Positions 19,901 to 59,435 of a stretch of 64,000 nucleotides of DNA are shown one piece after another (position 1 is the first letter of the stretch; each line of letters opens with the position of its first letter). The DNA lies in NCBI RefSeq assembly GCF_963678975.1, contig NC_089273.1, forward strand, positions 7,068,614 through 7,132,613. The letters are read 5' to 3'. Under the pieces are notes generated by a model that saw only the letters and a program-made list of their open reading frames with translations, was not told where the DNA came from and made no database searches. Source of the DNA: Dysidea avara. Lineage: Eukaryota; Porifera; Demospongiae; Dictyoceratida; Dysideidae. The position numbers were made by a program, and so were the translations under genes.

Positions 19901-20100
19901 ACCATTGTCTAACACATGTAACTGCATGTCCGAACTTCACTGGCATAGCCTAGCAGCTAGCTATGTCATGTGCTTTGTTAAATCACTTTTATATGTGACT
20001 GTCTTGGCAACAACACAACTAGTTCACACAACCTCCAATTTTCTGAACAAAAAATGACTTTCTTTTAACAATTTTCTATTTTTCATCAGTGCCTGCATGT

Positions 20101-20306
20101 ACATTGGAACCGCTCTTAACAAGAAACTCCCTGAATTAAGGACACAATAGAAAAAACCTCCATCATAAAGGCAAAAATTTTGGTTCCAACAGGTCTGGTT
20201 AATACATTTTTTACCTCTGAGATAGGAAAACCTCTTTATATTACAGTAACAAAATGGCCAAACATTCTGGGTCCCAAAATGTCCGTAATAGAGAGGTTCC
20301 ACTGTA
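20101..20306. mobile_element. MITE with CAGTGGAACCTCTCT ends (arm 1 copy)
   Basis: 206 bp. The right end in reverse is TACAGTGGAACCTCTCTATT; the left end is ACATTGGAACCGCTCTTAAC. The same element sits in arm 2 (58435-59158), where a later insertion interrupts it, so it predates the duplication. The ends fit the Tc1/mariner-pogo group, which targets TA. Confidence 0.7.
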
Positions 20307-20531
20307 TTTTGCTGCAGTATGTATTTCCCCATTGTTAAAGATTTGACCACTATTTCATCTGATTAACCAAATATCGAGGATGTACGGTTCAGTTTTCAAG
20401 AAAGCTGCACTCATACAGTAGCTATTTCATGCATTGTACCCAATTAAGAGAATGTGAAGGTTGGTGCAATGAAGTTTGCAACTAAGAAGTTGATCCTCAA
20501 GTGGAAATGATCATGTGACAAACTATGACTA

Positions 20532-20713
20532 TACAGTGGAACTTGTCTAAGCCGATCACCTTCGGGCCAAGATTTCTTGGAGAGTAGGCAAGTGGCTGCT
20601 TTAGACAGGTGGATTAGTATAATATATACACTGTACACTTCTCACTAGAGGAATTTAAAAGGTAAAGAGGTGGCCTTTCTGTACAGGTGACCGCTAAGAC
20701 AGGTGCCACTGTA
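20532..20713. mobile_element. MITE with CAGTGGAACTTGTCTAAG ends (arm 1 copy)
   Basis: 182 bp. The left end is TACAGTGGAACTTGTCTAAG; the right end, in reverse, is TACAGTGGCACCTGTCTTAG. Sister copies are at 58029-58212 (the duplicate in arm 2) and 30162-30337. Non-coding. TA at both tips fits a mariner/pogo-type target. Confidence 0.75.
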
Positions 20714-23700
20714 ATGCAGCTATTGTACATCTAAAGAGAATAGTTGCCACAAACTAGCTACAGTGTCACAGTAGCTATGTTGAGTTATATAGCTAAGTTA
20801 GCAAATTGCCTGTTATGCAGAGAGTATAATGCAGGCACTGGAGAGTATAGAGGTATGAAAATATAAGTCTAGCTAGTTATATTGTGGCAAGTTCTAGGGA
20901 TAATGGATAATACCTGCCTACCTGCAATCCATTTGGAATTTTGTGATGAAAAACAGAAAATCACAAAATAGTGGCCTTATGCTCTCAGCATTATCACAAT
21001 GTACAAAACGAGGTGCAGAGAATGGATAACTAAAGTTTTAGTTTTGATTGTAACTAGCAGTAGACAGAGATATAAATATATCAGTACAGTGACTATGCTG
21101 AATACAAACTACATACAGGCACTTAAAATTGCAGCTAATTTCCATTGGTCAACAGAGTTGAAATTTGAATTAAAATATTTACCATATATTGGAAAATCAA
21201 GATAATTATTATACTTTTATCCCTGTAGTAGGCAATCCAGTATCCGAGATTTTTAATAAAAATAATCTCCGTATATTCCCCAATAGAACCCAGGCACAAA
21301 ATAACAACTCACGTTTAGCTTAGGATTGCTCCGTCATCCAAGCTCCAATGAGGATGAAAATCGCTGTGGGGTTTGTCCATGTCCACACGCTGATCATCAT
21401 GAAAATCTTAGTTTTATCATGTGCATTACATATAAGTATGTTTTGTGTTGTTTTGTAATCTTTTCAAGCCTTGTAATGTATGTAGAATACTTTAAAACTT
21501 TTAAAAACATACTGTCGGATAGAAGGTAGTCACTAGTGTTTACTGTAAAGGGTATAGTAACTTCGCTCGGATTAGCGATTTTCAGCTCCATAGCAATTTT
21601 CTGATGGCTGTGTCATCAGCTCAAAAGTATAAACCACTTCAAAGTCGGCATAACAATGCCGTAATTGGAACCACAACTCCACCTTAGGTATTGTTGCATC
21701 ATTGTGGCACCTCCACTTTAGTTGTTTACCTTTATAAGTTGTTAACTTAATGTTTTTACTAACTTGAGATAGCCCCTTCTTATGGGTATAGCTACACCAT
21801 TGTATTGAGAAGTGAGCAGTAGGTGAAACATATTTGCTCACCACAAACCATACAAAGATTGCTGAGATCCGATAAGATCTGAAGTTACTATCATTGCATG
21901 TACAAACTTGCAGCTAGAAGCAACTGCAGTTTCAAGACTGTCCAGGTTACTAGATGGCTTCCTAATTCAATTGTGTCATTTTCCCCTTTAAAATGTATGG
22001 AGAGCCCCGGAGAAAAAATGTACCTTTGTTCAGTTTTTTAAGCGCTGTGCATGCCAAAGTAGCTAATTCCAACCCAACAAACTATATATTTCTGAGATCG
22101 GCAATCAATACTCTATCTATTGAGCATATAAGTCCATTTTTCTAAACTTTAAAAATTGGGCTGGAATGCCTACCTGTAGTCACTCATACATGCATGTGGC
22201 ATTTTTGGACAACAATAAGTTTGTTCACGTCTGCTGCATCATTAATGTACACCGTTGGAGCTACCAAAACAAAACAAAATTAATTTAGCTGAAGTCTCCA
22301 TGAGCAGGAAAATAATAATAAGATGGTGTATGAGTTTAATCTTGTTTCCCTGAGTAATGCCTTAATTAAAGGGACATTGCAACTGTATGGAAGCCATTTC
22401 AAGTGTGAATAAACAATACATCATCTAAGCGCTACATAGTTGGAACAATAACAAATTTCATTTGTACAGCAACAATATAGTGTAAATAAATTATAGGCAC
22501 TTATGTTATAACTCATGACTGATACAAGCTATGAAGACAGGGCTTAGCTCACACTGCTCACCATAAATAAATTGGTAAATCTTTTTAAAGTGTAGTGCTT
22601 TTCATAACTGTATTCCTCCACATGTACAAATGCTATTTCAACGAAGAATTTTGGTGACAATAATGCACATTATTTCCACAGCATCATAATTATTGCAACT
22701 TTTTCACCCACATACAGTTTGCGCAGAGAAAATTCATACGGTCCACAAATAGGTGATTCCGATGATGTATAGATTTTATTGATTCGAGCTTTGTTTTATT
22801 GCATTGCAAGGTGCAAGTGTGTTGTGCATATTTTTACCCAGTTTGTTTCAAACTTGTTTTAAACAAAAGTTAATACGTAAAATGACTTCAGCTGTTCACA
22901 TACATTATGTTAACAGGTGTGGTCATTGATGTATGTGCATGTGTTCAGGATATATAGCATGTAAGTTTGTGCTGGCATGGTTTCAGGAATAGTAGGCCAA
23001 CAAAAGCATCAAGCAATATGCCAACATTATACCGTATACCCATAAATTTTTGTGGTACGTAAATTTCATGGTTTCACAATTTGGAAACTACCATGAATTT
23101 TTTTATCTCATGAAAATTTATGCATGTCTGCATGTGCACCTATAAACTTCAATTCACCTTACTGATAAATTAGCATGGCTCCACATACAGTATGCTTGCA
23201 AACATAACACACATTTCTGATGTTAAATTGGATGGGCTCATGAAATAAGCTGGCTTACTGCAAGACTAGACTATGCTTGACACAGGGATTACCGCTACTG
23301 TGCAACTTGTATCACACACTCTTTAGCAATTGGCATGACACGTGAAATAAAAATCAATCTGGATACTTTGCAGCCATGTGGTGGTCAAGAACAAAAATCT
23401 TCAAATCGTGCAACAAATGCAAATATCCTGACAAAGAATATAAATGTGAAATATACAAATTTCTGGGTATACGTAGCTATAAGGACAATTTTCAAGATGC
23501 TAATGTATAATGCGCATGCAGCAAAATACACACTTTCAACATTTTCATATACGTATTGTTTCTTGGCTGGTTATATGCACAATTCACAGAAGTCAGATCA
23601 AGATATTCTAATAAAGCATGCAGGCACTTACTGTAATACAAAGGTCAGCTTGAACTGTTGATACATTAATAAAAAATGTCAATACTCAAGAACAATCTTG

Positions 23701-23787
23701 ATTTTGAAAGCACAATTTTGGCATAACACAGTTTGCGTTTGAGCACTGCCCAAAGTGTAATGGGCTATTTTCAAAGCATAATACGTA

Positions 23788-24020
23788 TGTGACCGGGCCT
23801 GTGAAAACAGGGCATATGGGCATAAACTATGCCCCATCACATATCTCAGTAGTGGAACAGAATACTTACATTCTGTAACTTGCATCATAAAGCCAATTAA
23901 ATAAGTACCAACTGCTAAAAGTTTCATTGCCATTGCATATCGGTATAACAGACAAGGAAGTTTGAAAAAGTAGGCAAAAATCATGTGTCCACATACTCTG
24001 TTATCACACGTTCAGTCACA
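23788..24020. mobile_element. MITE, GTGACCGGGCCTGCGAAAA family (arm 1 copy)
   Basis: Left end TGTGACCGGGCCTGTGAAAA followed by CAGGGCATATGGGCA; right end ...GTGTCCACATACTCTG and TCAGTCACA. It is also present at the matching place in arm 2 (48386-48641), so it predates the duplication. It ends 83 bp before exon 2 of gene A. Confidence 0.75.
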
Positions 24021-24102
24021 TATTGACATACAGTGACACGTTAGATTACATACGGTCATAAATTAATATGCTATGTATGTGCTGTTTATACTAATTATGT
24101 AG

Positions 24103-27100
24103 CAGACATAGATGCAATTAAGGCTCAATATGAGAAGATAAAACAAGCATTCCTTGCACAAGACTTTGATAAAGCTGCCTCAGTGTTCACAGAAGATTGT
24201 AGGATAGTGACACATGGGGGTCCAATAATGAGTGGACGAGAAGGTATGATGTGATAGTTAATATGTGATTTAATTATTACAAGATCGTAAGTAACACTAA
24301 AGTCATCCTATACAAGTATTTCATTTCACATTAATTTTTTAATACATTATACATCAAACATTTATCACAGTGGAAGATGTGAATGCAGATGATTGAAAAC
24401 AGAGCTAAAATAATAAATTATTCTGAAAGCTAGCAAAACTAATATTCAAGATTTAATTTAATTCACAGACACATTATATCTCTATAGGGAAAGAAACTAC
24501 TACTGTAAAATTTGTTTTGATCTGTTGGTAAACTGCTTACAAGCCCCATTATTTTGTCAGAAAATGACCGTACAAACATATTTAATTCATAACATAACAA
24601 TTTTGCGAATTTAGTGAATGCTCTATTAGAGTCAGTGAATACAGTCATTATGGATTTTGGTACTATACAGAGTATTTCAAGACTACTTTTAAGCAGAAAC
24701 ACTTAGTACAGTGCTATATACATCATAGGGACTAATAAACTTCCCTTAATAATGAATCACATTATATCGTGTGTCGCCAGTAGCAGTGTGAATATAGTTT
24801 ACAATTGTAGGGATTTCATTAGCTAGATAAACAGCCATCTAACCACTCAATACGTCAAAGCAAAAAAAGTGATTGTAAGTGTATAACTGCTACTGCTATG
24901 AGCACAATTATTTTCAGTTACTCTAATAAAACAGTCACTCATTTTTAGATTTATTTTTGTTACAGCGCACAGCAATCCTTCAAAGAATAATTGTAGGCTT
25001 TGACGTTTAGAGTATTATTAGCAGTACCATATGGGCTAATGAATTCATTGCAATTATGAATCTTGTTTAAGATACTGTAATAGCGGCGACATAGTCCAGA
25101 CTAAATGACACCTATAACCATATGAATGTAATTTGCACTTGTATGGATTTCATTAGTTAGATAAGCTACTGGTTGATCAATAAAGCTGTCTGCACACATC
25201 AATTAGCTCTCAATACAACTATTTATGATTTATGACAAATCAATTTTAAAATTCTCTAATAGAGCAGTCTTTCGTTTTTAAGTATTAAATAGTTGGTAAT
25301 GTTGGTAAATTGTAAAGTATAATTATGTCCATAGAATATCAAACCTGCTCCCATAGCTTAGAATACTTGATTTATAATGAATAATAAAACTATTTGAGTG
25401 ATTTTGTTGTATCCCTAATTGAAAATACCTAGCCTGCTTTCCATCTTAATCAATGAACTTTCCTAGTTAAAACACTATATACCAGTGGTGGGTCCCTATG
25501 CTACACTCTACTATACACCACAGCTCTCCAGAAATATCTGTATTATTTTTTTGTCTACTCTTATAATTTTTACATGGACGTAGCTGCAAAGAAAATAGGA
25601 CAAGGCTTCACTAAGGCAGGAGTAAAGGAATCTGAGGAGACATTTGATAAAATAGTTCCCTTGGGAGCAGACACTTACTATGTTGATTCGAGTTCTGTTA
25701 CTTACTTGGAAGGCAAAAATGTGTTTGACAAAATCAAGTAAGAGCATCCACTAGCATTCTGTACATTACATACTGTAATATGATGTAACACTCCAATCAA
25801 ATGAGGTAGACGGTATTAAATTCCCTTCTCTATAATTATGATAACCTTGATAATAACGTACTTCCAGCTTGCACTATAATAAAGTTTACATATGCACGGT
25901 ACTACTGTAAGTATGGTACATGTAGCAGAGATGAAGAAAGCTTGCTATTCTCTCACTAAAGAGTCTATGTAAAAATCCAAATTTTTACAATTTGGAAACA
26001 TTGGTTAGGTATAATAAAGCCCTAAAGTGCATTTAGGCTGATCCAAAATGCCCCTAATGACATGCTACAAATCATGTTTGACAGAATTTCTACTGATTGA
26101 TTAACTAATGCCACCTAACTACTGTAAGCAATGCATTTAAAGTGTAACTTGAAAACTATTGACTATCACTCTGGATTTCCTGGCTACTTTACAAGGCACA
26201 CTGAATCATGCAGTGTAAGCCTCACATTACACCAAATCACTTACCTTTAAGTAAACAATACGGACTAACAATCTTTACTAGGTTAACTTCATTTTGTTAA
26301 GTCACAAAGTAATTACAAAACAACGAAACCACTAAATACTCAAGAGCTACAATCAAGCTACTACAACCAAACAAGACCTACATTGTATAAAACTAGTTTA
26401 TCATGTCTCGATAAATGTCTTCAAAGCTGGTTTCTTTAGATTCTATCACAATTCTTACAATATCACTTACGTGTATATGCTGTAAAGTTCTGGAACATAT
26501 TGTACATACAAACATCATGTCTCACTTCTCTGAACACAGTGTACTCTCTGAATCCCAATTTGGATTTCGTAAGAATTATTCAGCTGAACTACAATTATAG
26601 TATGTTCACGTTGAGCTGAATCCTGAAAAACAGTTAAAAATTAAAAGTGGATTTTTTCTCAAAAGATTTAACATTTCAACCAGCCAGATAATTATTGGTA
26701 ACAGCAAAGGTGTCAACAACAGACACATACAGTTTGGATCCATTACAAGTTCGGGAAAGGGCTATAATGGGCACTGTACTTATATGGCTTCCCCATAGGA
26801 AATGTATTGTGAAAATTTTGATTGGCCGTAAATATTATGTAAAACATTTGAACAACAAGATTTTGAAATATTTTTAGCGGGTCAAGCAGTACTACAAATT
26901 AGCCAAATTTCAAGATCGTGTATAACTGCATCTGTGAGTTATTAAATGTTTTTGAGGATTCAGCTCAACGTGAACATACTATAATAAAAACATCTTATGA
27001 TTTTGCTTCTAGCTTAATATACAACAAAGACCAAACTGATGCTGTGTTACTAGATTTTGGCAAGGCTTTTGACTGAGTTCTGCATCACTTACTGCTCACA

Positions 27101-29011
27101 AAGCTTCAACATTATGGTGTAAGTGGTAACATCTTGAACTGGATTACTGACTTTTTGGACAGCCGTACTCAGCGTATGGTATGTGGTGGTACTACCTCTA
27201 AACCTATAAACGTAACTAGTGGTGTACCTCAGGGAAGTGTGTTGGGACCACTATCATTTTTAGCATAATATCAATGACATCACTACAAATTTATCATCTT
27301 CCTGTCATTTATTTGCTGATGACTGCATTTTGTACAGAAAGATTGATACACCGGACCAGAGTCAATTATTACTGCCTGACATAGGCCATTTGTCAGGCGA
27401 ATATCATGTATGGCCGACCATAATGGAACCTGCCTGACAAAATGTCAGATCAAAATAGAAGAAAGTTGCAGAGTTTTTATAGTGAAGTATTGTCAATAAT
27501 AGCAAACAACAATGATTGTATTATTATTTTAGGTTGAGTTACTCTATTCTGTCAATGTATTGTAAGGATTTCCCTATTATGATGAATTGTGTAAAATAGT
27601 AGCATGTCAGGTAATGCTTTAGGTTTCCTGACATTTTCACTGGGATTTGAAAAAATTATAATTGTCTCTGCACTGGACGATGCTAAATTACTTCAAAAAG
27701 ACTTGAGAAAACTGGAAATATGGGAAGAGGCCTGGGGGATGAAATTCAATATAGAGAAATTCATGATAATAAAAATCACATTAAAACATAATCCTTACAT
27801 TACGGAATACACCCTCCATGGCAAAAAAACTAAATCCTGTTGCAAATGCTAAATACTTGGGTATCAATTTTGATAGCAAGCTTACATTCAACCATCATGT
27901 GGACACTGTTTGCCAAAAGCTAATAACACTTTAGCATCCTTACGAAGAAATCTGAAACACTGTCACCAAAGAGTTAAGCTAGATGCCTACAAGACTATTT
28001 GTTCTACCAATTTTAAACTATGCTGCGACAGTTTGGTCCCCACACACAATACTACATCAATAAACTAGAAGCTGTTCAGAAATGTGCCGCTTGTTTTATT
28101 GTGTCAGATTACCGCAGATTAAGTAGTATGTCACATATCCTAAATTCATTAAAGCTAAAATCCATAGTGTACCACCATACAAGGCTTTGTCTCTTTATGT
28201 TCTACAAGATTGTCAATCACCTAGTAGAGCTTCCTATCCCCAGTTATATTGTACATTCTACAAGATGTTTATGAGGAAACCAGGATAAGTTCATCAAACC
28301 ATCTGCTACTGTTGATGCATACAAATTTAGTTTTTACCCAAGATCAATTACCCCATGGAATCAACTACCAATCAATGATATTTTTTCCCTAAATGATTTT
28401 GATAGTATTCTTCAATCAACACTGACACATTCAATGAAAAACAGTAATTAATAATCTAAAAACATTGTTTTTATACTCAAATTTGTGAGTTTTACAATCA
28501 TAAATAAATATATATATATATAAATTTTCCTGGAGGAATTCCCCCAGACTCCCCTAGAAGGTGAGCATGAGCATGCTTTGCATGCTTTGAGTGCACTTTG
28601 CGCACTGTGCATTTACCCACAAGTAGCTATACCCTTCTCCGCCACTGCTATATTTACCAATAGTGGCCCCCCTATAATTTTTGCTTTGCTACGCCCCTGA
28701 GCTACAATCAAGCTACTACAACAAAACAAGAGCTACATTGTATAAAACTAGTTTATTATGTCTCAATGAATGTCTTCAAAGCTGGTTTCTTCAGGTTTTA
28801 TCACAATTCTTACATCACATGCATGTGTACATTGCATACATGACTAACTGACTGGGTCATTTATTGTGAAGTATATGCTAAATACTATAATGACAATACA
28901 CTTATATTGTCCTGTAGTTTTGTCAAGATATGGCGCAAAGTCGGTGGTGAGTGGTTGATATTTAGTGATACAATCTGCAGCCAGACTCCACCTAAACCTC
29001 CACCTGCTTGA
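24103..29011 (+). CDS. Gene A: SnoaL/DUF4440-like (NTF2-fold) protein, exons 2-4
   Basis: Exons 24103-24243, 25584-25737 and 28918-29011 (stop TGA 29009-29011). All junctions are GT-AG and the phases fit (1, 1, 2). With exon 1 at 14367 the product is 134 aa, the usual size of a single SnoaL-like/DUF4440 domain. Exon 2 has the N-terminal helices (IDAIKAQYEKIKQAFLAQDF) and the strand-turn CRIVTHGGPIMSGREG, matching the family pattern of acid-rich turn, GG-P and G-R-E. Exon 3 supplies the middle helix and strands; exon 4 has IWRKVGGEWLIFSD, the typical last strands, then a Pro-rich tail PPKPPPA. There is no signal peptide, so it is probably cytosolic. The family includes isomerase-like enzymes and ligand-binding proteins; the substrate cannot be told. 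Intron 3 holds a LINE insertion. Confidence 0.75.
24621..24631 (-). repeat. CTCTAATAGAG motif, single
   Basis: GAATGCTCTATTAGAGTCAG in intron 2 of gene A. Two more single or degenerate copies lie nearby: ACTCTAATAAAACAGTCA at about 24918 and TCTCTAATAGAGCAGTC at about 25253. Confidence 0.6.
26344..26463 (+). repeat. Left copy of a long (about 116-bp) flanking duplication
   Basis: GAGCTACAATCAAGCTACTA through CACAATTCTTAC is repeated at 28699-28814, on the other side of the LINE block. Arm 2 has a single copy at about 46207-46328. So the two copies flank an insertion, like an unusually long target-site duplication. Confidence 0.8.
26470..28450 (+). pseudogene. Reverse-transcriptase pseudogene of the intron-3 LINE
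   Basis: 5'-truncated relative to a full LINE: no endonuclease was seen. In the first catalytic box the residue after FD is a stop codon (AAGGCTTTTGACTGAG at about 27062-27077). The FADD box is intact. It is interrupted at 26598-26981 by a TIR element and at about 27383-27660 by unrelated sequence. The C-terminal part (28020-28274) still reads HTQYYINKLEAVQKCAA and VYHHTRLCLFMFYKIVN. Confidence 0.75.
26598..26981. mobile_element. TIR element nested in the LINE, TA target duplication
   Basis: 384 bp with about 34-bp inverted ends, TAGTATGTTCACGTTGAGCT followed by GAATCCT, flanked by TA on both sides (26596-26597 and 26982-26983). It fits a Tc1/mariner-type MITE. The reverse-transcriptase frame resumes right after it. 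Confidence 0.85.
28699..28814 (+). repeat. Right copy of the long flanking duplication
   Basis: Second copy of 26344-26463; see that entry. Differences are few (for example AACAAAACAAGAGC against AACCAAACAAGACC). Confidence 0.8.
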
Positions 29012-29348
29012 ATTCAAGATGCCTGACTTGTTACTGCATTTAGACTTTTAGGATTTGAACATACTGTATGTAGTAGTTTATTAATGTGAGTTAGAAATCA
29101 TTCAACATAACAATTTGCTAACTTATTTACAGTATTTCAGGATGAATTGCATATAGATTATCATAGAGTGCTTTATATATAATACCACACAAAGTAGCCA
29201 AGCTGTGGAAAAGGGTGTGGCTTTCAAAAGCTTGTGTGAAAAGTTGTGGAATCAAAAAGTGGTTGCATGCTATATTTGAAGAAGGAGATCAATTTATAAT
29301 AGCAAATTTTCTAAAAGAGCAGAGAGAAACCATCAATATCAAGACTCA

Positions 29349-29432
29349 CGGTAGTGAGGCGCGCGGCCAAGAAACTACAAAGCGCACGCCCAATTAAAAG
29401 ACGCGCGGCCTCTACTGTGAGTTATTTACGTG
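29349..29432 (+). repeat. CTCACGGTAGTGAG / CGCGCGGCC repeat fragment
   Basis: ACTCACGGTAGTGAGGCGCG, CGGCCAAGAAACTAC, GCGCACGCCC, then CGCGCGGCC and CTACTGTGAGT. It has the same signature as 13030-13082 and 35417-35470. The GC-rich island stands out from the AT-rich surroundings, and its two ends (CACGGTAGTGAG and CTACTGTGAG) are weakly inverted. Confidence 0.5.
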
Positions 29433-30161
29433 TAGGGACGGTTTCGCAATATTAGCCCTGAATTACGCAACATCTCTCAATAGGTTTGTATTGCGTTACG
29501 TAATAAAAAAAAATCTTTTCTCGTAGTAGTAGTAGTAGCTTTCTTGCGACCGGTATTAAACGCGTATTTAGACACATTTCGCTTTATTTCTCAACCTTGT
29601 GTTACACCTAGCGTCACCTTATACCAGTCAACTTACCCATGTTTGTACAGTCCATCTAGCAATGACATTATCTAATCCTGGTTTGTTCATACGCGTATTT
29701 TCTTCGATCAAACCTCTGATCCCTACAATAACTTTTAAAGACACGATGTGGACACAAGCCCTAATGTCTGATAAAAAGCGTTTAGAACCATAAGTTCCCT
29801 AGGGAAGGTGTTTTAAGCAGAAATCTTTTAAACTCCATTTATTGCCACGCCCCATGCGTGCGTTGATAATTGGCAGATGTCTTATAAACAAGCTTAAGTG
29901 TGAAAGCGTCAAGAACGTAGTGTCACTAGAGAAGGTGTTCCAAGTATAATTCTTGTTGCCACACCACACATGGTGTATTGTGTGTTCTGGTGGTGCTCAG
30001 ACCAGCTTGTTACATAGCATTACCCACCCTAACAGCAAGTAGTCACTCCCATCGTGGCTTTCATCATGCATATCATTTAATTAATACACATGTTACATAA
30101 CAAAATATATCACAGTAATTGTTTGTGACATTAACAATAAAATTTTGACAATAAAATGGGA

Positions 30162-30337
30162 TATAGTGGAAACTGTCTAAGCCGGTCACCTTTGGGCCAA
30201 GATTTCTTGGCCTTAATAGGCAGGTGGCTACTTTAGACAGGAAATTAGTGTATAAACTACTCACAGGAATTTAAAGCTGGTCTTTTTAAAGAGGTGGCCT
30301 TTCTGTACAGGTGATTACTAAGACAAGTTCCACTGTA
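30162..30337. mobile_element. MITE with CAGTGGAACTTGTCTAAG ends
   Basis: Same family as 20532-20713: TATAGTGGAAACTGTCTAAG on the left, and TACAGTGGAACTTGTCTTAG in reverse from the right. The interior shares GGCCAAGATTTCTTGG and AAAGAGGTGGCCTTTCTGTA. Confidence 0.75.
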
Positions 30338-30429
30338 GTTAGCCCCATCGCGACTGTACGCCTCATCCTGGAAATTCAGAAGATTGTAATCAACTGAGAT
30401 ATAATGCCAAGATCTTATCAGACTTCATC

Positions 30430-31210
30430 GTCCATGTCCACTTGACAATTGAGAACTAAAGAACACACATAACATTATATAATTCCTCTGTCTATATAAA
30501 TTATTCCCCCGAACCTTGATCTTTACGTATGTACCACTGCTAGTGAGAGAACCGCATCCCATGACCAAGTACCCTGTACATGTAAAATTGACAGGGCATT
30601 AAATACAATACAGCTAAAAATCTGTCACTTTTTACACAAATGACAGATTTGGGGATCTGAAAATTCATCACACCCTTGAGGTAATACAAACATTTCTTAG
30701 TATACACACAGACTGACCTGAAGATCCACAACGTCCTTGCAGTCCATGCACACTTGACAATTGAGAACTAAAGAACACACAACATTATAAAATTCCTTTG
30801 TCTACTTACCTTGATCTTAGTTGCCAAGTTTAGAGCAGGTTATGTATGTAGCACTGCTGATCTGAAGATCCACAATGTCCTTGATGTTACTACAGTCCAC
30901 GTACACCTGACAATTGAGAACTACATAACATTATAAAATTTCTTTGTCTACTTACCCCCCGAACCTTGATCTTAATTGCCAAGTTTAGAGCAGCTCTAGC
31001 CAAGTTATGTAAGTAGCACTGCTAGTAAGAGAACCGCATGCTATGACCAAGTACCCTGTAAAATTGACAGGCGGGCATTAAATACAACACAGCTAAAAAT
31101 CTCTCACTTTTTACGTAAATGACATATTTGGGGAATTCATCACATCTTGAGGTAATACAAAATTTGAGGACCAGAAAATTCATCACACCCTTGAGGTAAT
31201 ACGTTTGAGG
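30430..31210. repeat. Degenerate tandem/dispersed repeat block
   Basis: The word group CACTTGACAATTGAGAACTA ... AACATTATA(A/T)AATTCCT(T/C)TGTCTA recurs at about 30440, 30750 and 30905. ACCTTGATCTT(A/T) and TTGCCAAGTTTAGAGCAG recur at 30810 and 30965. AGAGAACCGCATCC..ATGACCAAGTACCCTGTA recurs at 30545 and 31027. TTCATCACACCCTTGAGGTA recurs at 30664 and 31178. The units are roughly 150-480 bp and partly scrambled. No coding pattern was found on either strand. Confidence 0.7.
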
Positions 31211-31636
31211 ATTCACAAGTTGGCCCAGCAGTGACCTTACTACACACTGTCCTGATTAGACAGATTTCACTGTACATAAAGACCAGTATGCAATGTGAAA
31301 GAGTATTTTTTGTACAAGCATCATGTAGACTACCTTACTTCTTCCACCTAGTTCCAGGACTTCTAAATTGGCACTACAGTGACAATACTGAAAGCTGTTT
31401 GGTCTGTATGAGTACGCCTTGTTAACAATCCATCCATGAGATATAATTTCAAGCGGGAAAATATTGGTACTTGCTGCTGCTCAATTTGGTATCATCATAG
31501 AAGTTTTCAGCTTGGTCTCAGTGAACTTGCACTAGTCAGTGCGGACGTCTGACAGTCTAAAACCAATCGCATGCACGCGGTCAATCAGTGTGAATACATG
31601 TGGCACTTTGTACACTAGCCTCATTTTTTTCATGCA

Positions 31637-32277: not shown

Positions 32278-32304
32278 TTAATGTAAACCGCGTATCACGT
32301 GTAT

Positions 32305-35370: not shown

Positions 35371-35416
35371 TAGTTAGCTAGAGCCAGTATGTAGCTGTAT
35401 TATTATATCAATACAC

Positions 35417-39798: not shown

Positions 39799-39837
39799 GG
39801 GGTATACAAATACAAAAGAAGTGAAATGTAATCCAAA

Positions 39838-48305: not shown

Positions 48306-48385
48306 CTACATAATTAGTAAATAGCACATACATGAAATATTAATTTATGACCGTATGTAATCTAACGTGTCACTGTATGTCAATA

Positions 48386-48641
48386 TGTGACTGGGAATCT
48401 GAAAACAGAGTGTGTGGGCATGTGATTTTGCCTACTTTTTCAAACTTCCTTGTCTTTTATACCTGTCTGTCTGGTCCAGTATGCTATGGCAATGAAACTT
48501 TTAGCAGTTAGTACCCATTTAATTGGCTTTACAATGTAAGTTACAGAATACAAATATTCTGTTCGACTACTGAGATATGACCTGTAGAGTGACGGGGTGT
48601 ATTTTGTGTCCACATGCTCAGTTTTCACAGGCCCGGTCACA
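48386..48641. mobile_element. MITE, GTGACCGGGCCTGCGAAAA family (arm 2 copy)
   Basis: Left tip TGTGACTGGGAATCTGAAAA; right tip in reverse TGTGACCGGGCCTGTGAAAA. Counterpart of 23788-24020, just upstream of exon 2 of gene B. Confidence 0.75.
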
Positions 48642-50467
48642 TACGTATTATGCTTTGAAAATAGCCCATTACACTTTGAGCAGTAATCAAAAGCAAACTG
48701 TGTTATGTATAAATTGTGCTTTCAAAATCACAATTATGCTTGAGTATTGACTTTTTTATTAATGTATCAACATTTCAAACTGACCTTTGTATTACAGTAA
48801 GTGCCTGTATGCTTTATTAGAATGTCTCGATCTGACTTCTGTGAATTGTGCATATAACCAGCCAAGAAACAATACGTATATGAAAATGTTGAAAGTGTGT
48901 ATTTTGCTGCATGCGCATTATACATTAGCATCTTGAAAATTGTCCTTATAGCTACGAATACCCAGAAATTTGTATATTTCACAGTTATACTCTTTGTCAG
49001 GATATTTGCATTTGTTGCACGATTTGAAGATTTTTGTTCTTGGCCACCACACAGCTGCAAAGTATCCAGATTGATTTTTACTTCACATGTCATGCCAATT
49101 GCTAAAGAGTGTGTGAAGCAAGTTGCACAGTAGTGGTAATCCCTGTGTCAAGCATATATAGTCTAATCTTGCAGTAAGCGGCTTATTTCACGAGCCCATC
49201 CAATTTAACATCAGAAATGTGTGTTACTTTTTGCAAGCATACTGTATGTAGAGCCACGCTAATTTATCAGTGAGGTGAATTGAAGTTCATATGTGCACAT
49301 GCAGACATGCATAAATTTTCATGAGATAAAAATTTTCATGGTAGCTTCCAAATTGTGAAAACCATGAAATTTACGTACCACAAAAATTTATGGGTATACG
49401 GTATAATGATGGCATACTGCTTGATGCTTTTGTTGACCTACTATTCCTGAAATCATGCCAGCACAAACTTACATGCTATATATCCTGAACACATGCACAT
49501 AAATGAATGACCACACCTGTTAACATATATATGTGAACAGCTGAAGCCATATTACGTATTAACTTTTGTTTAAAACAAGTTTGAAACAAACTGGCTAAAA
49601 ATATGCATACAACACTTGCACTTTGCAATGCAATGAAACAAAGCTCAAATCAATAAAATTTATACACCATCAGAATCACATATTTATGGACCATATGGAT
49701 GTTCTATGTGCAAACTGTATGTGGGTGAAAAAATTACAATAATTAGAAATAATGTTCATTATTGTCACCAAATTCTTTGTTGAAATGGCATTTGTACACG
49801 TGGAGGAATCATACAGTACGATAATACTGTATGGTAGGGACGACGAAGATGTGGGCATGGTTTACAAAAATAAATCAAGCCAAAATCATCTTTGCAAACC
49901 CTTCATGGCCACTTGACAGTATTGGTCAGGTATAACCAAGCCCAAACATGCCTTCAGAACGACCAGAAGCATTTTCGATCAGGTGCTACGAAATTAAAAA
50001 AAATAAAAATTTTCGCAAATTTTCTCCTGCCTAACTGCCTCAATGCCTGATGCGTTCAGTCAAGCGTAGCAGAAAATTGGCTACAGCTATAGCCTTATTT
50101 CTTTGGCGGAAATGCTTTGAATTTCATGGAGATGAAACTTTTAGTATTTTAAATATCCTACAATGTATGCACTATTGCTTACTGATTTTCCTTTGATCCT
50201 TCTTTATCGTGGCCATTGCTCAGCAGTAGGGCTTCCATATCAATAGGGCTTCCATAATCATTGTGAATACACATGTTATCGCACCAAACTTTTAGAATAC
50301 ATTTGTAATTTGACGTTTGGCTTATACAGGATCTATCGTACATCGTTGACAAGATACACGCGTAAGACATCTTGTTTAGTATTCGTGTGTTTGTTGTTTA
50401 GCAGCTAGGTTTAACTGCTTGTGTTTCTAAACGCATTTCTTTGTGACTAACACATTCTTCGCTATTA

Positions 50468-50837
50468 GGCCACTCCAAATAAATTCTCTGTTTTCCGTCC
50501 ACTGCCCGCATCTGGTTACTGTCAGCTTTAAAACTTCCATTATTCCGTATTCTTCCATTATTTTCCGTTATTCTTGCATACTGACAGGCTCAGAAAAAGC
50601 CATATCGAAACGGTGTCAGCAGTGCTATCAAGTTGGCCCGCCACACTTCACGCTTGTGTTATTTTTGCAACTTAAAAGGAAGGATCAAGCTTAGCATGCT
50701 TTTAATGGTTGTGCCTGGAAAATAACGGCTTGAAAAGCTGCCAATTTGTATAATGAAATAATGGAAATGGACCGCCTGCCTGCATGCAAATATGCTTGAG
50801 TCCAGGACGGGAAACAGAGAATTTATTTGGAGTGGCC
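50468..50837. mobile_element. PIF/Harbinger-like MITE with TTA target duplication
   Basis: 370 bp. Inverted ends of about 33 bp begin GGCCACTCCAAATAAATTCT and continue CTGTTTTCCGTCC. TTA flanks both sides (50465-50467 and 50838-50840). The interior has no transposase. Confidence 0.85.
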
Positions 50838-51613
50838 TTACAGTATTAACACTTCTTTATGTATCCTTGAATGTGTTTACTATTGTCTACACAAGTCAGC
50901 AAAACCATATACATACATGATTGGAATAGTCAAATAACTATCTAAAGCTGTTAACACTATTAAGTGTAAAATGCATATACAAAACTTCTAATTCAATGCA
51001 TGAATAATAATGTATTAAGTACATAATCTCATAGAAACCCTGCATATTATGTTTTGTCACAATTCCTTGTCATTTGTCAGTCGCTCCAGCAACATCGTCT
51101 TTATGTGCAACAATTACTTGTTGTGTTCCACCATATTCCCACTACAATGATCAATGTGTACTGTATAGCTAACTTATGACAGGTACAAAGAAAGTATAGC
51201 TTATTTGGTAACATCATTGTTAACAAAGTTATAGCTAATGAATATGTAAAAGGTAGAGTAGGGCTTGTCATACAGTACGATAGTAACTGTATAGTAGGAA
51301 CCACAAAGGAGTAGGCGTGGCCCACAAAATAATATTACCCAAACATCAGCCTCAATTTTCCTTACAACGATGAGGGAGTATTAGTGAGGTAAAACTTAAA
51401 CCCAAACAAGCTTTCAGATCGACCCGAAATGCTTTCAACAATATCTTGATTAAAATGCTGTGTAACGGGTTGAACATAGCTGACAACGAAGTGTATATAG
51501 TAACTTCACTTTTCACATGATAATTGATATAGCTGGGGCATGCAGTGCCTTTTCAGATGTGGTATGCGTGGGGTCACCAGCTATAATACAATTATTTACA
51601 AAAAAAGTTAACA

Positions 51614-51927
51614 AACAAGTACACGAAAAAATTTGGAATTTTCAACTAGAGTAGGGACGACAGTACATTGATAAAAAGTACTGAAACAAGTACATAGGGG
51701 TAGTGAACAATACTAAAATACAGTTAAATAATAAGACGTGTTATATCTCTACTGTGCTTAAGATGCCATAATGGAAATGCACAGTAGGGATATAACACGT
51801 CTAATTACATGTATTTAACTGTATTTTAGTATTGTTCACTACCCCTATGCACTTGTTTCAGTACTTTTTATCAATGTACTGTCGTCCCTACTCTAGTTGA
51901 ATATTCCAAATTTTTTCGTATACTTGT
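51614..51927. mobile_element. Long palindrome (foldback MITE)
   Basis: About 314 bp. The left arm runs AACAAGTACACGAAAAAATT ... GTAGGGACGACAGTACATTG ... AATACTAAAATACAGTTAAA ... GACGTGTTATATC, mirrored on the right. A short centre near 51765-51780 reads AAGATGCCATAATGGAAATG. Arms of about 140 bp with few mismatches; it would form a very stable hairpin. The words GTAGGGACGAC at its shoulders match the start of the 49810 copy, so it may be part of the same family. Confidence 0.8.
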
Positions 51928-52112
51928 ACAATTATGAAAAGCACTACACCTTAAAAGGATTTGCCAATTTATACATGGTGAGCAGTCTGACCTAAGCCCT
52001 GTCTTCGTAGCTTGCTTCAATCATGAGTTATAATATAAGTGCCTATAATTGTGACCTAATTTTAGAAAACCGTCGATATCCGCACAATTTCAAAATGCAT
52101 TTTATTTTATTC

Positions 52113-52300
52113 TATTGTAATTGTAATTGTAATTGTAATTTTTAAGCAGGGAGTCCACTCAGTAAAACTGATTTTCAGTGGAGCCCTGAACAAACATACA
52201 ATAGACACATACTATAACTAATAATATACAAAAAAACAAACAAACATACATACACAACTAAGGATACATAGACAAAATTACACAGGAATTAAGATAATAA
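52113..52300 (-). repeat. LINE 3'-end fragment with (ATTACA)n tail, minus strand
   Basis: In reverse: CAGGGCTCCACTGAAAATCA, GAGTGGACTCCCTGCTTAAA, then about four ATTACA units at 52113-52140. It faces away from the LINE that starts at about 52310 and has a different tail, so it is a separate insertion. Confidence 0.55.
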
Positions 52301-52309
52301 TTATGAAAT

Positions 52310-53712
52310 GACGACAATTTGGTTTTCGCCACAAATGCTCTACTGTTTCTTTACTTTTGGAGGCAGTTAATGATTGGGCAACTTCTCTGGAACAGCGTAG
52401 TAGTACTCACTGCATTTTCTTAGACCTAGCAAAGGCTTTTGATTCTGTTTCCCATCCTCGTTTACTGTTGAAGTTGGAATCTCTTGGAATCTCTGGTGAT
52501 ATTTTGATTTGGTTAAAGGCATTTTTAACAAGTCGATGCCAGCGTGTTGTAGTTAATGGGAGGTTTTCCTCATGGCTTCCGGTTACCTCAGGGGTGCCCC
52601 AGGGTTCAGTCTTAGGCCCTGTTCTTTTTTTACTTTTCATTAATGACATTTCCTCTGTTATATCTCACAGCAAAGTCAAACTATTTGCTGATGATGTCAC
52701 GATCTACAAGGAAATCTCATCACCTGATGATGTTAAATTGTTGCAGTTTGATCTCTCAAGTATAGCTCAGTGGGCGAAAAAGTGGCTCTTGCGTCTCAAT
52801 CCAATTAAATGTGATAGCATAGTGATTTCCAACAAGCGTTCCCCAATTTTACCTTCATACCATCTAGATTCTTCTGTTATTCTACACCATCCTGTAATTC
52901 GATACCTAGGCATTATAGTTGACACAAAGCTGAACTGGAATGAACACTGTAAATATGTTTCAGCTAAAGCTACTAAAGCACTCAATTTTCTTCGCCACTG
53001 CCTGTTCAATGCTCCTTCATCCATTAAATCTACTGCTTACAAATGCATTGTCCGCCCCGTTATGGAATATTCCAGTCCAGTTTGGCATCCTCATACTGCT
53101 GAAAACATCAATGCTCTGGAATCTGTTCAGCGTAGAGCTGCCCGTTGGGCTTCCAATAGTAGGTGGATTCCTTCATCTCACTGTTGGAGTAAGTCTTCTG
53201 ACGAATGCATCCAAGCATTAAAGTGGCCTACCATTCAACAGCGTCACAACTACTTTACTATTTGTTGTATTCATGATAGTCTCTACCACAGGAATTCCTT
53301 ACCATTTAGTGAACATTTTCAGTTGTCCCAAGCTCCCACAAGGTGTCACCCTCTATCTCTCCAGCCTGTGACATCGTCTATCAATTCGTTTCGTTACTCT
53401 TTCTTTGTGAACAGCCCATTTCTGTGGAATACCATACCCCATACCATCCTGCGAATTAAACAGCCACCCTTGTTCCGTTTAGCCCTCCGTCGTTTTCTTT
53501 TTTGAATCTTCTGTTGTATACTTAATGTTCTTGTTTTGTTAGTATTTATTTTTGTTCTTGTAGTAGTTTTGTTTTACAGGTGTATTTGCTTATGTCATTG
53601 TTTTTGTAATTTCTGGTGTGTATGTGCTTTTTGTGGGAAGTACGCCTACAGGCTTGTCCTTTTGTACAACCCGGTCTTTTGACAAAATTGATAATAACAT
53701 AACATAACATGA
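52310..53712 (+). mobile_element. 5'-truncated LINE (CR1/Jockey-like)
   Basis: It begins in the middle of the reverse transcriptase (QFGFRHKCSTVSLLLEAVND) and ends with a tandem tail (AACAT)n at about 53692-53712. It lies inside the 52051-54365 element and is absent from arm 1. 5' truncation is usual for target-primed insertion. Confidence 0.85.
52315..53505 (+). pseudogene. Reverse transcriptase of the truncated LINE (open, 5'-truncated)
   Basis: An open frame to TGA 53503-53505 with the conserved boxes in order: CIFLDLAKAFDSVSH (first catalytic Asp), VTSGVPQGSVLGPVLFLLFI, KLFADDVTIY (the FADD box), KWLLRLNPIKCDSI, VIRYLGIIVDTKLNW, and the C-terminal region YKCIVRPVMEYSSPVWHPHT. The active-site residues are intact and no stops were found, so the copy is young. 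The endonuclease and the start of RT are missing, so it cannot be autonomous. The first ATG (52357) is internal and not a true start. Confidence 0.85.
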
Positions 53713-55762
53713 CAAAGTGGCAGCCCCAGTAACAGTGGACTTAAGGTTGTTCCATAAAACAGTTTCTTTGTTTTCTACAGGGACAGAGGAATGGACTAGC
53801 CAAGTTTCAGCTTCCTAAGTTAAGCAGCGTTGGAAATACAGCACTAGACAGCCAGACGAGCAAATAATTTGATATAATACAGAAGCTATAGAGGAAAGAA
53901 TCTACAGGCACTTACATAAACCATCATAACTTATCGATATAACAACGTATGGAATTGAATCTTGGCTCATTGTGTTCGCCATGAATTTGTGCATCCATCA
54001 AGGTACAGTGGTTTCCCCAGGCATGCTTCTTTGTTCGAGAAGGAAGGCAAATTCACTGAAAAATGATCGTTGGTAAATTCTTTCGTCACCGTAATGTAAA
54101 CAAACGTCTGTAACTTTGGAATCTTTTCGTGTATGGAGATGAAACAAAGATTTTTGTACCCCCGATGGACAGGCGAACATGATGATGCCCAGGATTTATC
54201 CATTGACAGCTTAATTCGCCCACCAGCGAGGCGATAAAAACTTGCATATTTTTTTCTGGAGCTTGCGTTTTTTGCCCATAGTTTTTAAATGCGTTTTATT
54301 ACAAAAGTACTGTTGTGCGTATATCGACGGTTTTGTTTTGTTATGGTTTTCCAAAATTCGGTCACAATTTATTTACACTATATTGTCGCTGTACAAATTA
54401 AAATTGTTATTGTTCCAACTATCTAGTGCTTAGATTATGTATTGTTTATTCACACTTGAAATGGCTTCCATACAGTTGCAATGTCCCTTTAATTAAGGCA
54501 TTACTCAGGGAAACAAGATTAAACTCATACACCATCTTATTATTATTTTCCTGCTCATGGAGAGTTCAACTAAATTAATTTTGTTTTGTTTTAGTAGCTC
54601 CAACGGTGTACATTAATGATGCAGCAGACGTGAACAAACTTATTGTTGTCCAAAAATGCCACATGCATGTATGAGTGACTACAGGTAGGCATTCCAGCCC
54701 AATTTTTAAAGTTTAGAAAAATGGACTTATATGCTCAATAGATAGAGTATTGATTGCCGATCTCAGAAATATATAGTTTGTTGGGTTGGAATTAGCTACT
54801 TTGGCATGCACAGCGCTTAAAAACTGAAAAAAGGTACATTTTTTTCTCGAGCGCTCCCATACATTTTAAAGGGGAAAATGGCACAATTGAATTAAGAAGC
54901 CATCTAGTAACCTGGACTGTCTTGAAACTGCAGTTGCTTCTAGCTGCAAATTTGTACATGTAATGATAGTAACTTGAGGCCTTATCGGATCTCAACAATC
55001 TTTGTATGGTTTGTGGTGAGCAAATAAGTTTCACCTATTGCACACTTTTCAATACAATGGTGTATACCCATAGGAAGGGGCTATCTCAAGTTAGTAAAAA
55101 CATCAAGTTAACAACTTATAAAGGTAAACAACTAAAGTGGAGGTGTCACAGTGATGCAACAATACCTAAGGTGGAATTATAGTTTCAATTAGGGCATTGT
55201 TATGCCGACTTTGAAGTGGTTTATACTTTTGAGCTGATGACACAGCCATCAGAAAATTGCTATGGAGCTGAAAATCGCTAACCCGAGCGAAGTTACTATG
55301 CCCTTTAAAGTAAGCACTAGTGACTACCTTCCATCCGACAGTACGTTTTTAAAAGTTTTAAAGTATTCTACATACATTACAAGGCTTGGAAACATTACAA
55401 AACAACACAAAACATACTTATATGTAATGCAAATGATAAAACTAAGATTTTCATGATGATCAGCGTGTGGACAAACCCCACAGCGATTTTCATCCTCATT
55501 GGAGCTTGGATGACGGAGCAATCCTAAGCTAAACGTGAGTTGTTATTTTGTGCCTGGGTTCTATTGGGGAATATACGGAGGTTATTTTTATTAAAAATCT
55601 TGGATACTGGATTGCCTACTACAGGGATAAAAGTATAATAATTATCTTGATTTTCCAATATATGGCAAATATTTTAATTCAAATTTCAACTCTGTAGACC
55701 AATGGACATTAGCTGCAATTTTAAGTGCCTATATGTAGTTTGTATTCAGCATAGTCACTGTA

Positions 55763-57676
55763 CAGTAGACCCTCTCTTATCCGACCCCCTGTGTATATTT
55801 CCATTTGATAAAGTGTTTGGATAATTGAAATCGTTCGGATAACTGAAGAGACATTAGGATGACATATTTACATGCACATGTACACTTTATTTGAATTACA
55901 GTACTTGTATTGAAATAAAATGTTACGTTGTACATGTACACTGTTACTTCGCATGGAAAAAATTAGATAGTGTACATTGTTTCATTGAAGCAAACCGTTT
56001 TTTAATAGCAAGGGATCTTAGCTCACGTATTGTCGTCAAATTATACATGTTTGCCTCTGGTTGAAATTCCAGCTATTTTAAACACTTTTCAAACATATCT
56101 GCAGCAGCTCCATGAGAAATAGTGCACCCTTCACTGCTATCGACATCATCATCACTTTGGTCAACATCATCTTCACCAGTTTCTGAATTTTCTAGCTGAA
56201 CGACTTCACAGGTTTCATCATCAGTGTAGACCCTGTAACCCTGATCATTTCTATCTTGCTCTAACCAGTCAAGCACATCCTCTTCTTCAAGTCGGTTTTC
56301 TTCATTCTGGACTTCATTTAACATTCTCACCATCATCAATACATCAGCAGCAGGTTCATCAAATTCTATCATTTGGATGACTTCATCTTCGTTGTCTATT
56401 GGTATGATTTTCTCCCATGATTTCCTCAGTGTTTCAGCCTTAACCTCATCCCATGCTCCTTAATGAGATCTACCACCACCTTCATGTTGACAGACTTTAA
56501 AAAGTCTATGATAGACCTACCATCTTCATCTGCTAATAGCACTCTACTCAGCAGCTTCTTCTTGTAAATACGTTACAAACCAATCAAAACACCCTAATCC
56601 ATATGTTGAATAAGTGACGTAACATTGGGTGGCAGAAATTTAGCCATGATTTTTCCATTTTCACTAACCAACTCATCTGCATCAGGATGGGCAGAACAAT
56701 TATCTAGAAGCAGCACAGCTTCACAGTCTTTGCCTAGTTTCTCTTGGACGTACGGAATGAAATTATTATGAAACCATTCGTGGAACAAACTAGACTCCAT
56801 CCATGCGTTCTTTTGTGCTGAGTAGACAACAGGCAAAAGATCCATGTTAATGCCTATAAAGCACCTGGGCTTTTTAGCTTTTCCAATAAAATGAATGGGC
56901 AGTTTGACAGTGCCTGAAGCATTAGAGCAAACATTCAGGGTTATTCGATCTTTGGCCTTCTTCTGCCCATCAACTGACTTTTCAAACGAAGCAGCAAGTG
57001 TTTTCTTAGGCAACAAACGAAAATAAAGTCCTGTTTAATCACAGTTAAAGATGTTATCTAAAGGAAAGTTCCTCGCTCTGACAAATTCACGAAACGACGG
57101 CACAAAGTCCACAGCTGCATCATAATTAGCAGACAACTTTTCACCTTGGCTTGATATATTTCGTATTCCATGTCTATTACAAAATCTCCATTTCCACCCT
57201 TCACTAGCAACGAATTTGTAGTTGTCTCCAAACAGCTTCTTACTTAATTGAACGGCTTTCTCACAAAATATGGGCCCCGTCACTGGTATCCCATCCATCC
57301 GCTTTTGTTTAAACCACAAATACACAGCCTTGTCCAGTATCGCACTAGTTCCTAGTTTCAGCATCTTGGGTTGGTGATGCATTCCCATATCTAGCGTTTC
57401 CTTCTTGAAGTCTAGAAGTTTCTGGCGATCCCTTTTAATATCGCTCACGGTACTCTTACTGATGTCATATTTTGTTGCAATTGCTGCTAAGGAATAATTA
57501 TTGTCGAGCAACTCTAAAATCTTCAGTTTTTCATCAACAGTTAGCACCTTCCGTTTGCGTTTTACCGTCGCCATGTTTTGAAAACAAGCGCACGTGATTT
57601 TTTGTTTTTTTGCAAAACCGATTTCGGATAATCGAGGTTACGGATAATCGAGGGCCGGATAAGAGAGGGTCTACTG
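55763..57676 (-). mobile_element. pogo/Tigger-type DNA transposon with TA target
   Basis: 1,914 bp. Inverted ends CAGTAGACCCTCTCTTATCC (both sides, with GGATAATCGAGG next to the right end), flanked by TA at 55761-55762 and 57677-57678. Arm 1 has the empty TA site at 21085-21086 with matching flanks, a clean before/after pair. It carries one transposase gene on the minus strand with nonsense codons. The ends and TA target are typical of pogo/Tigger. Confidence 0.92.
56073..57574 (-). pseudogene. pogo/Tigger (CENP-B-like) transposase, inactivated
   Basis: Starts at ATG 57574. The first part (57574-57035) has the psq/CENP-B-type helix-turn-helix (TVDEKLKILELLDNNYSLAA then KYDISKSTVSDIK) and the second DNA-binding domain (AVYLWFKQKRMDGIPVTGPI, EGWKWRFCNRHGI). 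It ends at NCD-stop, where a TAA occupies the place of one codon just after the first catalytic Asp. The DDE core continues in the same frame (57016-56594: LLDNCSAHPDADELV, FLPPNVTSLIQHMD) and meets TAG and TAA. The acidic tail continues at 56372-56073. The three nonsense codons I found look like C-to-T changes at CAA/CAG-type codons. Not functional. Without stops it would be about 500 aa, a usual size for the family. Confidence 0.88.
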
Positions 57677-58028
57677 TACTGATTTATTTATATCTCTGTC
57701 TACTGCTAGTTACAATCAAAACTGATACTTTGGTTATCCATTCTCTGCACCTCGTTTTGTACATTGTGATAATGCTGAGTACATAAGGCCACTATTTCGT
57801 GATTTTCTGTTTTTCATCACAAAATTCTAAATGGATTGCAGGCAGGCAGGTATTATCCATAGAACTTGCCACAATATAACTAGCTAGACTTATAATTATT
57901 TTCACCCTCCAGTGCCTGATACTCTCTGCATAACAGGCAATTTGCTAACTTAGCTAACTTAACATAGCTACTGTGACACTGTAGCTAGTTTGTGGCAACT
58001 ATTCTCTTTAGATGTACAATAGCTACAT

Positions 58029-58212
58029 TACATTGGAACCTGTTTTAGCGGCCACCTATATAGAAAGGCCACCTCTTTAAAAAGACTACCTTTAAAATTC
58101 CCCTAGTGAGAAATGTATACTGTATATAATCCACCTATCTAAAGCAGCCACTTGCCTACTCTCCAAGAAATCTTGTCCCGGAGGTGACCGGCTTAGACAA
58201 GTTCCACTCTAT
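58029..58212. mobile_element. MITE with CAGTGGAACTTGTCTAAG ends (arm 2 copy)
   Basis: Duplicate of 20532-20713 in reverse: left TACATTGGAACCTGTTTTAG, right in reverse TAGAGTGGAACTTGTCTAAG. It was present before the segmental duplication. Confidence 0.75.
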
Positions 58213-58434
58213 AGTCATAGTTTGTTACATGATCTGTTCCACTTGAGGATCAACTTCTTAGTTGTAAACTTCATTGCACCAACCTTCACATTCTCTTAAT
58301 TGTGTACAATGCATGAGGTAGCTACTGTATGAGTGCAACTTTCTTGAAAACTGAACTGCACATCCTCGATATTTGGTTAATCAGATGAAATAGTGGTCAA
58401 ATCTAACAATGGGGAAATACGTACTGCAGCAAAA

Positions 58435-59158
58435 TACAGTGGAACCTCTCTATTATGGACATTTTGAGACCCAGAATTTTTGGCCATTTTCTTGCTGTAA
58501 TGTAAAGAGGTTTTCCTCTTTGTACAGGTAATCACACACATTTGAGTGCAATTATGGTATAATTGTACCCGTAACAGCCAAAATTGCACTCAGATTCGCC
58601 TCGTGCAATTTTGACTGTTATTCATACAATTATTCCTTAATTGCACTCTAATGTGTGTGATTCCCTACTAATCACATAGTGACCACCCTTCATAGTTTGT
58701 AGTACAGTTCTATCTGGCCATTAACTTCTACCAGGTGATTGCATCATCCTTGTTTGTATGACACCATTAATTTTGTTGTTGCACTTAAAAGGCTTCATAA
58801 GTCAGCAATTCTGATTGGCTACTCAAAATGTCTACATATGTTACACTTAAAAGGCTTCTATTGTCAGCTCATTTGATTGGCTATAGATCATATCATTTTC
58901 TTGTTGCGCTTAAAAGGCTTCTGTTATTCTGCAATTTTATTGGCTACTTTACAGTTCAATTACAGAAACAAGGCCATGTGGTTTGGGATTAATTGCACTC
59001 CTACTATTGAGACTAATGTATGGAAACTAAATCAGTATGTGATTACAGAGATAAAAAATGTATTAACCAAACCTGTTGGGACCAAATTCTTTGCCGGAGG
59101 TTTGTTCTATTGTGTCCTTAATTCAGTGTTTTTATTTGTTAAGAGAGGTTCCACTGTG
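58435..59158. mobile_element. MITE with CAGTGGAACCTCTCT ends, split by an insertion (arm 2 copy)
   Basis: Counterpart of 20101-20306. The left half is 58435-58527 and the right half about 59048-59158. Between them lies a 520-bp insertion absent from arm 1. Confidence 0.7.
58528..59047. mobile_element. Insertion with GTAATCACA ends and internal tandem repeats
   Basis: Ends GTAATCACACACATTTGAGT (left) and, in reverse from the right, GTAATCACATACTGATTTAG. It contains an inverted repeat of about 80 bp (58535-58675: ATTTGAGTGCAATTATGG and its mirror near 58620-58665). It also has three copies of a 60-80-bp unit (CACTTAAAAGGCTTC ... GATTGGCTA) at about 58783, 58844 and 58905. Non-coding. Confidence 0.65.
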
Positions 59159-59435
59159 CATGCAGGCACTGATGAAAAATAGAAAAATTTTAACAACTTT
59201 TTGTTCAGAAAATTGGAGGTTGTGTGAACTAGTTGTGTTGTTGCCGAGACAGTCACATATAAAAGTGATTTAACAAAGCATATGGTATAGCTAGCTGCTA
59301 GGCTATGCCAGTGAATCTTGGACATGCAGTTATGTGTGTTAGACAATGGTATATCAGGGCCATAGCCAGACTTTTGTCTGGGTAGGTTCTTTTAGAAGAA
59401 AAGTGGACCTTTTATACGGTACAGCTCAACTATAA

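Follow-up and report, generated by a model that had tools for sequence, protein, structure and literature searches.

The SnoaL-like locus analysed here, in a 64,000-nucleotide stretch of the genome of the sponge Dysidea avara (the window; positions 7068614-7132613 of contig C2), contains a real inverted copy within a gene cluster that is both small and young, and is ordinary in kind. The two genes of the window, gene A in arm 1 and gene B in arm 2 of a large inverted repeat, are accompanied on the same contig by the related genes C, D and E, and the alignments make it very probable that one gene with a DUF4440 domain expanded locally to these five, that A is the youngest partner of B with its whole unit reversed, and that the two arms then gained transposons of their own. 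The region analysed comprised the window and 100 kb on each side, 264 kb in all, and the assembly searched contained 550.8 Mb in 108 contigs. Coordinates below 1 or above 64000 carry the numbering of the window beyond its ends, the position on contig C2 being 7068613 plus the number given.

Self-BLAST gave inverted blocks in collinear order, extending from 19897/59354 to 29289/45726 at about 81-96% identity, which bears out the inverted repeat that had been proposed in a sequence-only reading of the window, and the tail-to-tail arrangement of its two SnoaL-like genes was also found as described. The five best blocks between the arms had E = 0, the blocks being longer, and their mismatches fewer, than would be expected by chance. 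In the comparison of arm 1 to arm 2, 453 substitutions were counted in 6286 aligned columns (7.2%), with a divergence of 4.0-13.7% among the eight globally aligned blocks, the two end blocks of which contain about 20 non-homologous flank bases. Coding as well as noncoding DNA shows inverted collinear homology over more than 1 kb at about 90% identity, as in an inverted segmental duplication. The repeated unit proved to be larger than the 9.4 kb, ending at 19901 and 59354, that had been assigned to it. The homology continues to 14049 in arm 1 and to 77539 in arm 2; arm 2 had appeared to end at 59354 because a 9206-bp insertion begins at 59355, and beyond this insertion arm 2 is again homologous from 68561 to 77539, pairing with arm 1 down to 14049. 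The homologous unit in arm 1 is at least 15.2 kb (14049-29289), and the shorter span misses the first coding exon and a TATA-like promoter, both of which lie within the homology of the arms. A match between 33852-34052 and 39937-40144 was considered as an extra extension of the arms and dropped, as the two stretches align in either orientation and look like a palindromic repeat.

The two genes had been taken for an isolated pair, and they belong instead to a mostly direct-repeat cluster of five, ordered E-A-B-C-D over about 129 kb of the 54.7-Mb contig, in which four of the five genes lie on the minus strand and A is the sole plus-strand member. The three larger exons were found five times in the 264 kb by tblastn. 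The same exon pattern and an open frame were observed in all five genes, each of which is stretched over 4-32 kb by insertions, and A and B give complete translations of 134 residues each. The stop codons reported in the genome-wide matches to exon 3 of D and E fall past the exon edges, in introns. The genome-wide search (E <= 1e-3) gave 30 candidates, all of which were scored, and 15 of the 18 matches were the three cluster exons of the five genes; no cluster member was found elsewhere in the genome at this threshold except for three distant single-exon matches (37-38%) on contigs C6 and C12.

The products of A and B scored 43.4 and 34.6 bits, respectively, against the Pfam family DUF4440 (PF14534; NTF2-like superfamily, SnoaL clan), above its gathering cut-off of 25.2. 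Like members of this family the two products span the full 107-position model, and unlike it they carry a proline-rich C-terminal tail (QTPPKPPPA) outside the model. The Pfam scan covered A and B, and C, D and E resemble these two exon by exon at 70-80% identity. The NTF2-like resemblance rests on sequence matches to solved NTF2-like proteins, including a weak match (E 0.0004) to the bacterial ketosteroid-isomerase-like protein 3hx8. No relative of the cluster protein was confirmed in a viral contig collection. A DUF4440 domain is listed in a sponge skeletal protein (PMC4633127).

Noncoding divergence, taken from local alignments and thus a lower bound in each case, was 6.7% for A-B in comparison to 9.5% for both A-C and B-C; comparisons of D with A, B and C gave 14-15%, and those with E gave 17-21%. 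The lowest value makes sisters of A and B, and the two are likewise joined by a Ty3/gypsy-like element and by the repeat at 21225-22184, C being contiguous across the site of the former. Units B (40143-77539) and C (79003-95552) both lie on the minus strand and have edges in common, like neighbours in a tandem array, and only one 1463-bp element, which reads as a fold-back, stands between the 5' end of B and the 3' end of C; B-C is an ordinary tandem duplication. The 5' end of the unit coincides within 5 bp in A (14049-14054), B (77534-77539) and C (95552). A fold-back with inverted arrays of 21-base repeats (13446-14054) lies right at the 5' boundary of unit A, and a second fold-back (77540-79002) right at the B/C junction.

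In the history that we propose, a single DUF4440 (SnoaL/NTF2-like) gene would have given rise to the five local copies, among them B and C, which are direct tandem units; A would be the B unit copied once in inverted orientation, or a tandem duplicate that was later inverted. Unit A lies reversed together with its promoter, four coding exons and introns, and each arm acquired its own transposon insertions after the A/B split. Both A and B would be expressed, and their proteins may have diverged under selection for different ligands. The coordinates of the units, genes and insertions are collected in Table 1.

Table 1. Features of the DUF4440 cluster and its inverted arms, in window numbering
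Feature	Position	Strand	Basis or remark
Arm 1 (unit A), whole homologous unit	14049..29289	+	inverted collinear matches to 77539-45726 and to C 95552-83250
Spacer between arms	29290..45725		right part 40143-45725 belongs to unit B: piecewise match to C 79003-83261
Unit B (arm 2), extends beyond window to 77539	40143..64000	-	alignment; earlier-described part 45726-59354
Gene A promoter/5' leader	14240..14366	+	five-way alignment
Gene A coding exon 1 (ATGGCAGGAAATCAAG, then GT)	14367..14382	+	identical 16 bases in genes A-D, fewer in E
Gene A coding exon 2	24103..24243	+	tblastn / exon models
Gene A coding exon 3	25584..25737	+	tblastn / exon models
Gene A coding exon 4 and stop codon	28918..29011	+	tblastn / exon models
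Gene B coding exon 1, outside window	77005-76990	-	five-way alignment
Gene B coding exon 2	48165..48305	-	exon models
Gene B coding exon 3	46923..47076	-	exon models
Gene B coding exon 4 and stop codon	45998..46091	-	exon models
Gene C, third copy, outside window	86887 to 83535	-	tblastn, 264 kb
Gene D	109918 to 107694	-	tblastn, 264 kb
Gene E	-8741 to -17562	-	tblastn, 264 kb
Ty3/gypsy-like element, in A and B	15764..18386	-	Pfam RVT_1 and integrase domains; A/B match 74461-71911; absent from C
Dispersed repeat, ~0.95 kb, in A and B	21225..22184		alignment; C site empty
Private to arm 1, 735-bp dispersed repeat	24580..25314		absent from C at site; another copy at C edge, 83269-82538
Private to arm 1, broken 5'-truncated reverse-transcriptase element	~26479..28698	+	by eye; absent from C at site
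Private to arm 2, inverted terminal repeats ATACCGTATATGAC...	47531..48017		absent from C
Private to arm 2, 2.1 kb, fold-back at start	49809..51926		absent from C
Private to arm 2, 2.3 kb, terminal inverted repeats (GTGACC...), RVT_1 frame at 52312-53505	52051..54365		Pfam; absent from C
Private to arm 2, pogo/Tigger-like DNA transposon	55764..57672	-	Pfam DDE_1, CENP-B_N, HTH_Tnp_Tc5; absent from C
Private to arm 2, 0.5 kb, inverted ends TAATCACA/TGTGATTA	58518..59045		absent from C
Private to arm 2, 9206-bp insertion, full extent 59355-68560	59355..64000 in window		direct repeat GTATAT
Satellite array in spacer, 31/61/371-base units	36281..39721		flank 35402-36271

The use of shared and private insertions as a relative timeline, as put forward from the window alone, holds, and with C as an outgroup the ordering becomes firmer. 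The five insertions that had been described in arm 2 are all present in it and all absent from the third copy C, and were therefore gained in arm 2. For arm 1, where a single insertion had been reported, two private ones were found inside the span. The alignments place the Ty3-like element and the 21225-22184 repeat after C had split off and before A and B parted, the repeat near 23788 is older because it lies inside the portion aligned with C, and the five arm 2 insertions, the 9.2-kb insertion and the two arm 1 insertions are all dated on the same alignments to after the A/B split. The truncated reverse-transcriptase element of arm 1 is flanked by a direct repeat of 116-135 bp (26344-26478 and 28699-~28830), which is single in B and C; the idea that this element was ancestral and lost from arm 2 was dropped, since C has the flanking repeat once. 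The flanking repeat is long for a target-site duplication, and its left copy holds most of the private changes. Most of the 40 scored candidates for the 735-bp repeat were 92-97% identical, on many contigs, and because its copies are highly alike it was probably active recently. AATT flanks the element at 52051-54365, and the reverse-transcriptase frame within it may be either a nested insertion or a capture. By eye the 9.2-kb insertion contains a repetitive frame near 64584-65132, followed by fragments that resemble a Tc1 transposase at 65970-66443 and 66785-67366.

The first of the competing explanations to be weighed is that the assembly joined two haplotypes of one locus head to head, which we consider very improbable. 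The 7% divergence of the arms is inside the range of very heterozygous animals, but there is no N across the 264 kb or in the window, C on the same contig carries the unit at only slightly greater divergence, and the outer flanks differ, with gene E on the left and C and D on the right; on these grounds the earlier view that the duplication is biological and not a trivial artefact very probably holds. Moreover, the homology stops on both sides, where allelic contigs would be expected to be homologous on at least one, and among the 40 of 1245 candidates scored for a repeat-poor intron query only A and B gave a full-length match, with C matching in two pieces. A mobile unit, that is, a gene with fixed ends carried in a large transposon, was suggested when three arms seemed to share both edges, and it was dropped when the outer edge turned out to be the 9.2-kb insertion and the unit to be longer. 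The 5' end common to three copies within 5 bp would suit such a unit, but its ends have neither a terminal inverted repeat nor a target duplication, the 3' ends are unlike (29289 in A and 40143 in B), and every member lies in the one 129-kb cluster with none elsewhere in the genome search, so that we regard this explanation as hardly credible. Considerably more plausible, with a chance only somewhat short of even, is that A, B and C first formed a tandem array on the minus strand and that A was then turned round by an inversion, in place of an inverted duplication. The minus-strand orientation of four of the five genes speaks for it, as does the 5' end of A, which lies within 5 bp of the B/C tandem boundary, a point that fresh inverted copying would reach only by chance. 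Against it, the far side of the supposed inversion did not yield the 5.6 kb that is absent from the 3' end of A (B 40143-45725), nor did any scar of an inversion come to light, the fold-back elements blurring the unit edges. Some observations also weigh against the preferred history of local expansion with reversal of unit A and later divergence of the copies. Ending at 29289 on its 3' side, unit A lacks the 5.6 kb that reach to the tandem edge of B (40143), so that a clean single event is no more than a possibility. The divergence along the arms is uneven, with a variance/mean of 2.4 in comparison to 0.93 in shuffles and a longest identical run of 235 columns, and none of 2000 shuffles reached this run or this variance/mean; with possible gene conversion, such patchiness means that A-B may look younger than its real age. 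The older shared repeat at 21227-22490 differs by 4.1%, in comparison to 7.7% in the other noncoding columns, and gene conversion between the arms would be the likeliest cause of the patchiness. As a whole, with 7.2% substitutions and at least seven large private insertions, the arms are not those of a gene-converting palindrome, which are near-identical.

Also weighing against the preferred history is the overall omega of 1.03 under model M0, which is no different from 1 (with omega held at 1 the log-likelihood drops by a mere 0.01 units) and which alone also fits relaxed constraint on redundant copies, an explanation of the coding divergence that we rate as a strong contender to positive selection, plausible if not quite probable. 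Testing the branches of A and B (omega 2.0 vs 1) likewise gave no significant result, twice the log-likelihood difference (2dlnL) being ~2.6, and the ratio of nonsynonymous to noncoding divergence, 1.25 for A-C and B-C, was not significant and for C-D went in the opposite direction (0.60, p = 0.006); a divergence of 11-14% is also seen in the noncoding windows that adjoin exon 3 of A. Against relaxed constraint, a self-written site test on five sequences and 126 codons preferred M2a over M1a (2dlnL 15.0, p = 0.0005; omega ~4 at 22% of sites), and none of 60 simulations under the M1a null reached the observed value, the maximum being about 6.7, a result to be read with caution, since the sequences number five, the tree is close to a star and the paralogues may have exchanged sequence. 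The informative sites group AB against CD four times, AC against BD twice and AD against BC once. In addition, the nonsynonymous divergence of A-B exceeds the noncoding divergence (0.119 in comparison to 0.067, Fisher p = 0.001), and no stop codon was seen in the modelled exons in comparison to ~6.5 expected on an unconstrained, neutral tree. Pairwise omega was 1.6-1.8 among A, B and C, and at most 1 for pairs with D and E. The site model favours positive selection on the cluster proteins, and the evidence of unusually fast divergence, in the proteins of the cluster and in the promoter of one copy, is suggestive.

The promoter of A differs as well. The TATA-like box (~14257-14264), below which the first coding exon follows in a conserved upstream stretch, reads TATTAAAA in A in comparison to TATAAAA in B, C, D and E, and over 103 aligned promoter columns 15 private substitutions were counted in A, none in B and 2 in C. 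The changes in A are clustered and may therefore stem from few events, and they may affect the expression of A. A bolder and rather doubtful reading would be that the five genes encode small NTF2-like proteins that bind ligands, form a young set and diversify fast, with about one-fifth of their sites positively selected, and that the reversal of A was accompanied by the rebuilding of its core promoter, the TATA-like box being lost in A alone, so that A is expressed unlike its sister.

Satellite-like arrays similar to the one in the spacer, which has a shared flank, were also observed near -14 to -11, -50 to -47, -79 to -75, 135-139 and 161-164 kb, which suggests a transposon family with a variable internal array. 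A near-complete non-LTR (non-long terminal repeat) element with endonuclease and reverse-transcriptase domains (Pfam), split into overlapping frames, lies at 8838-12277.

Through this analysis an odd inverted repeat becomes a dated duplication history with an outgroup in the same cluster, whose three duplication steps serve to order the transposon insertions. The locus is a compact case in which to ask what changes first in a new gene copy, its protein, its promoter or its orientation, and the cluster, if positively selected, would be a place to test the function of DUF4440 in animals. Tandem gene families with an occasional inverted member include the major urinary protein and defensin clusters, which the present cluster resembles in its direct local paralogues, one of them inverted, its transposon-rich spacers and the unequal age of its copies, and from which it differs in its small size of five members, each drawn out over 4-32 kb. 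The large palindromes found on sex chromosomes, whose arms gene conversion keeps alike, similarly have these arms inverted around a spacer, whereas the arms described here are 7% apart and carry many insertions, being near-identical in some stretches and not homogenised overall.

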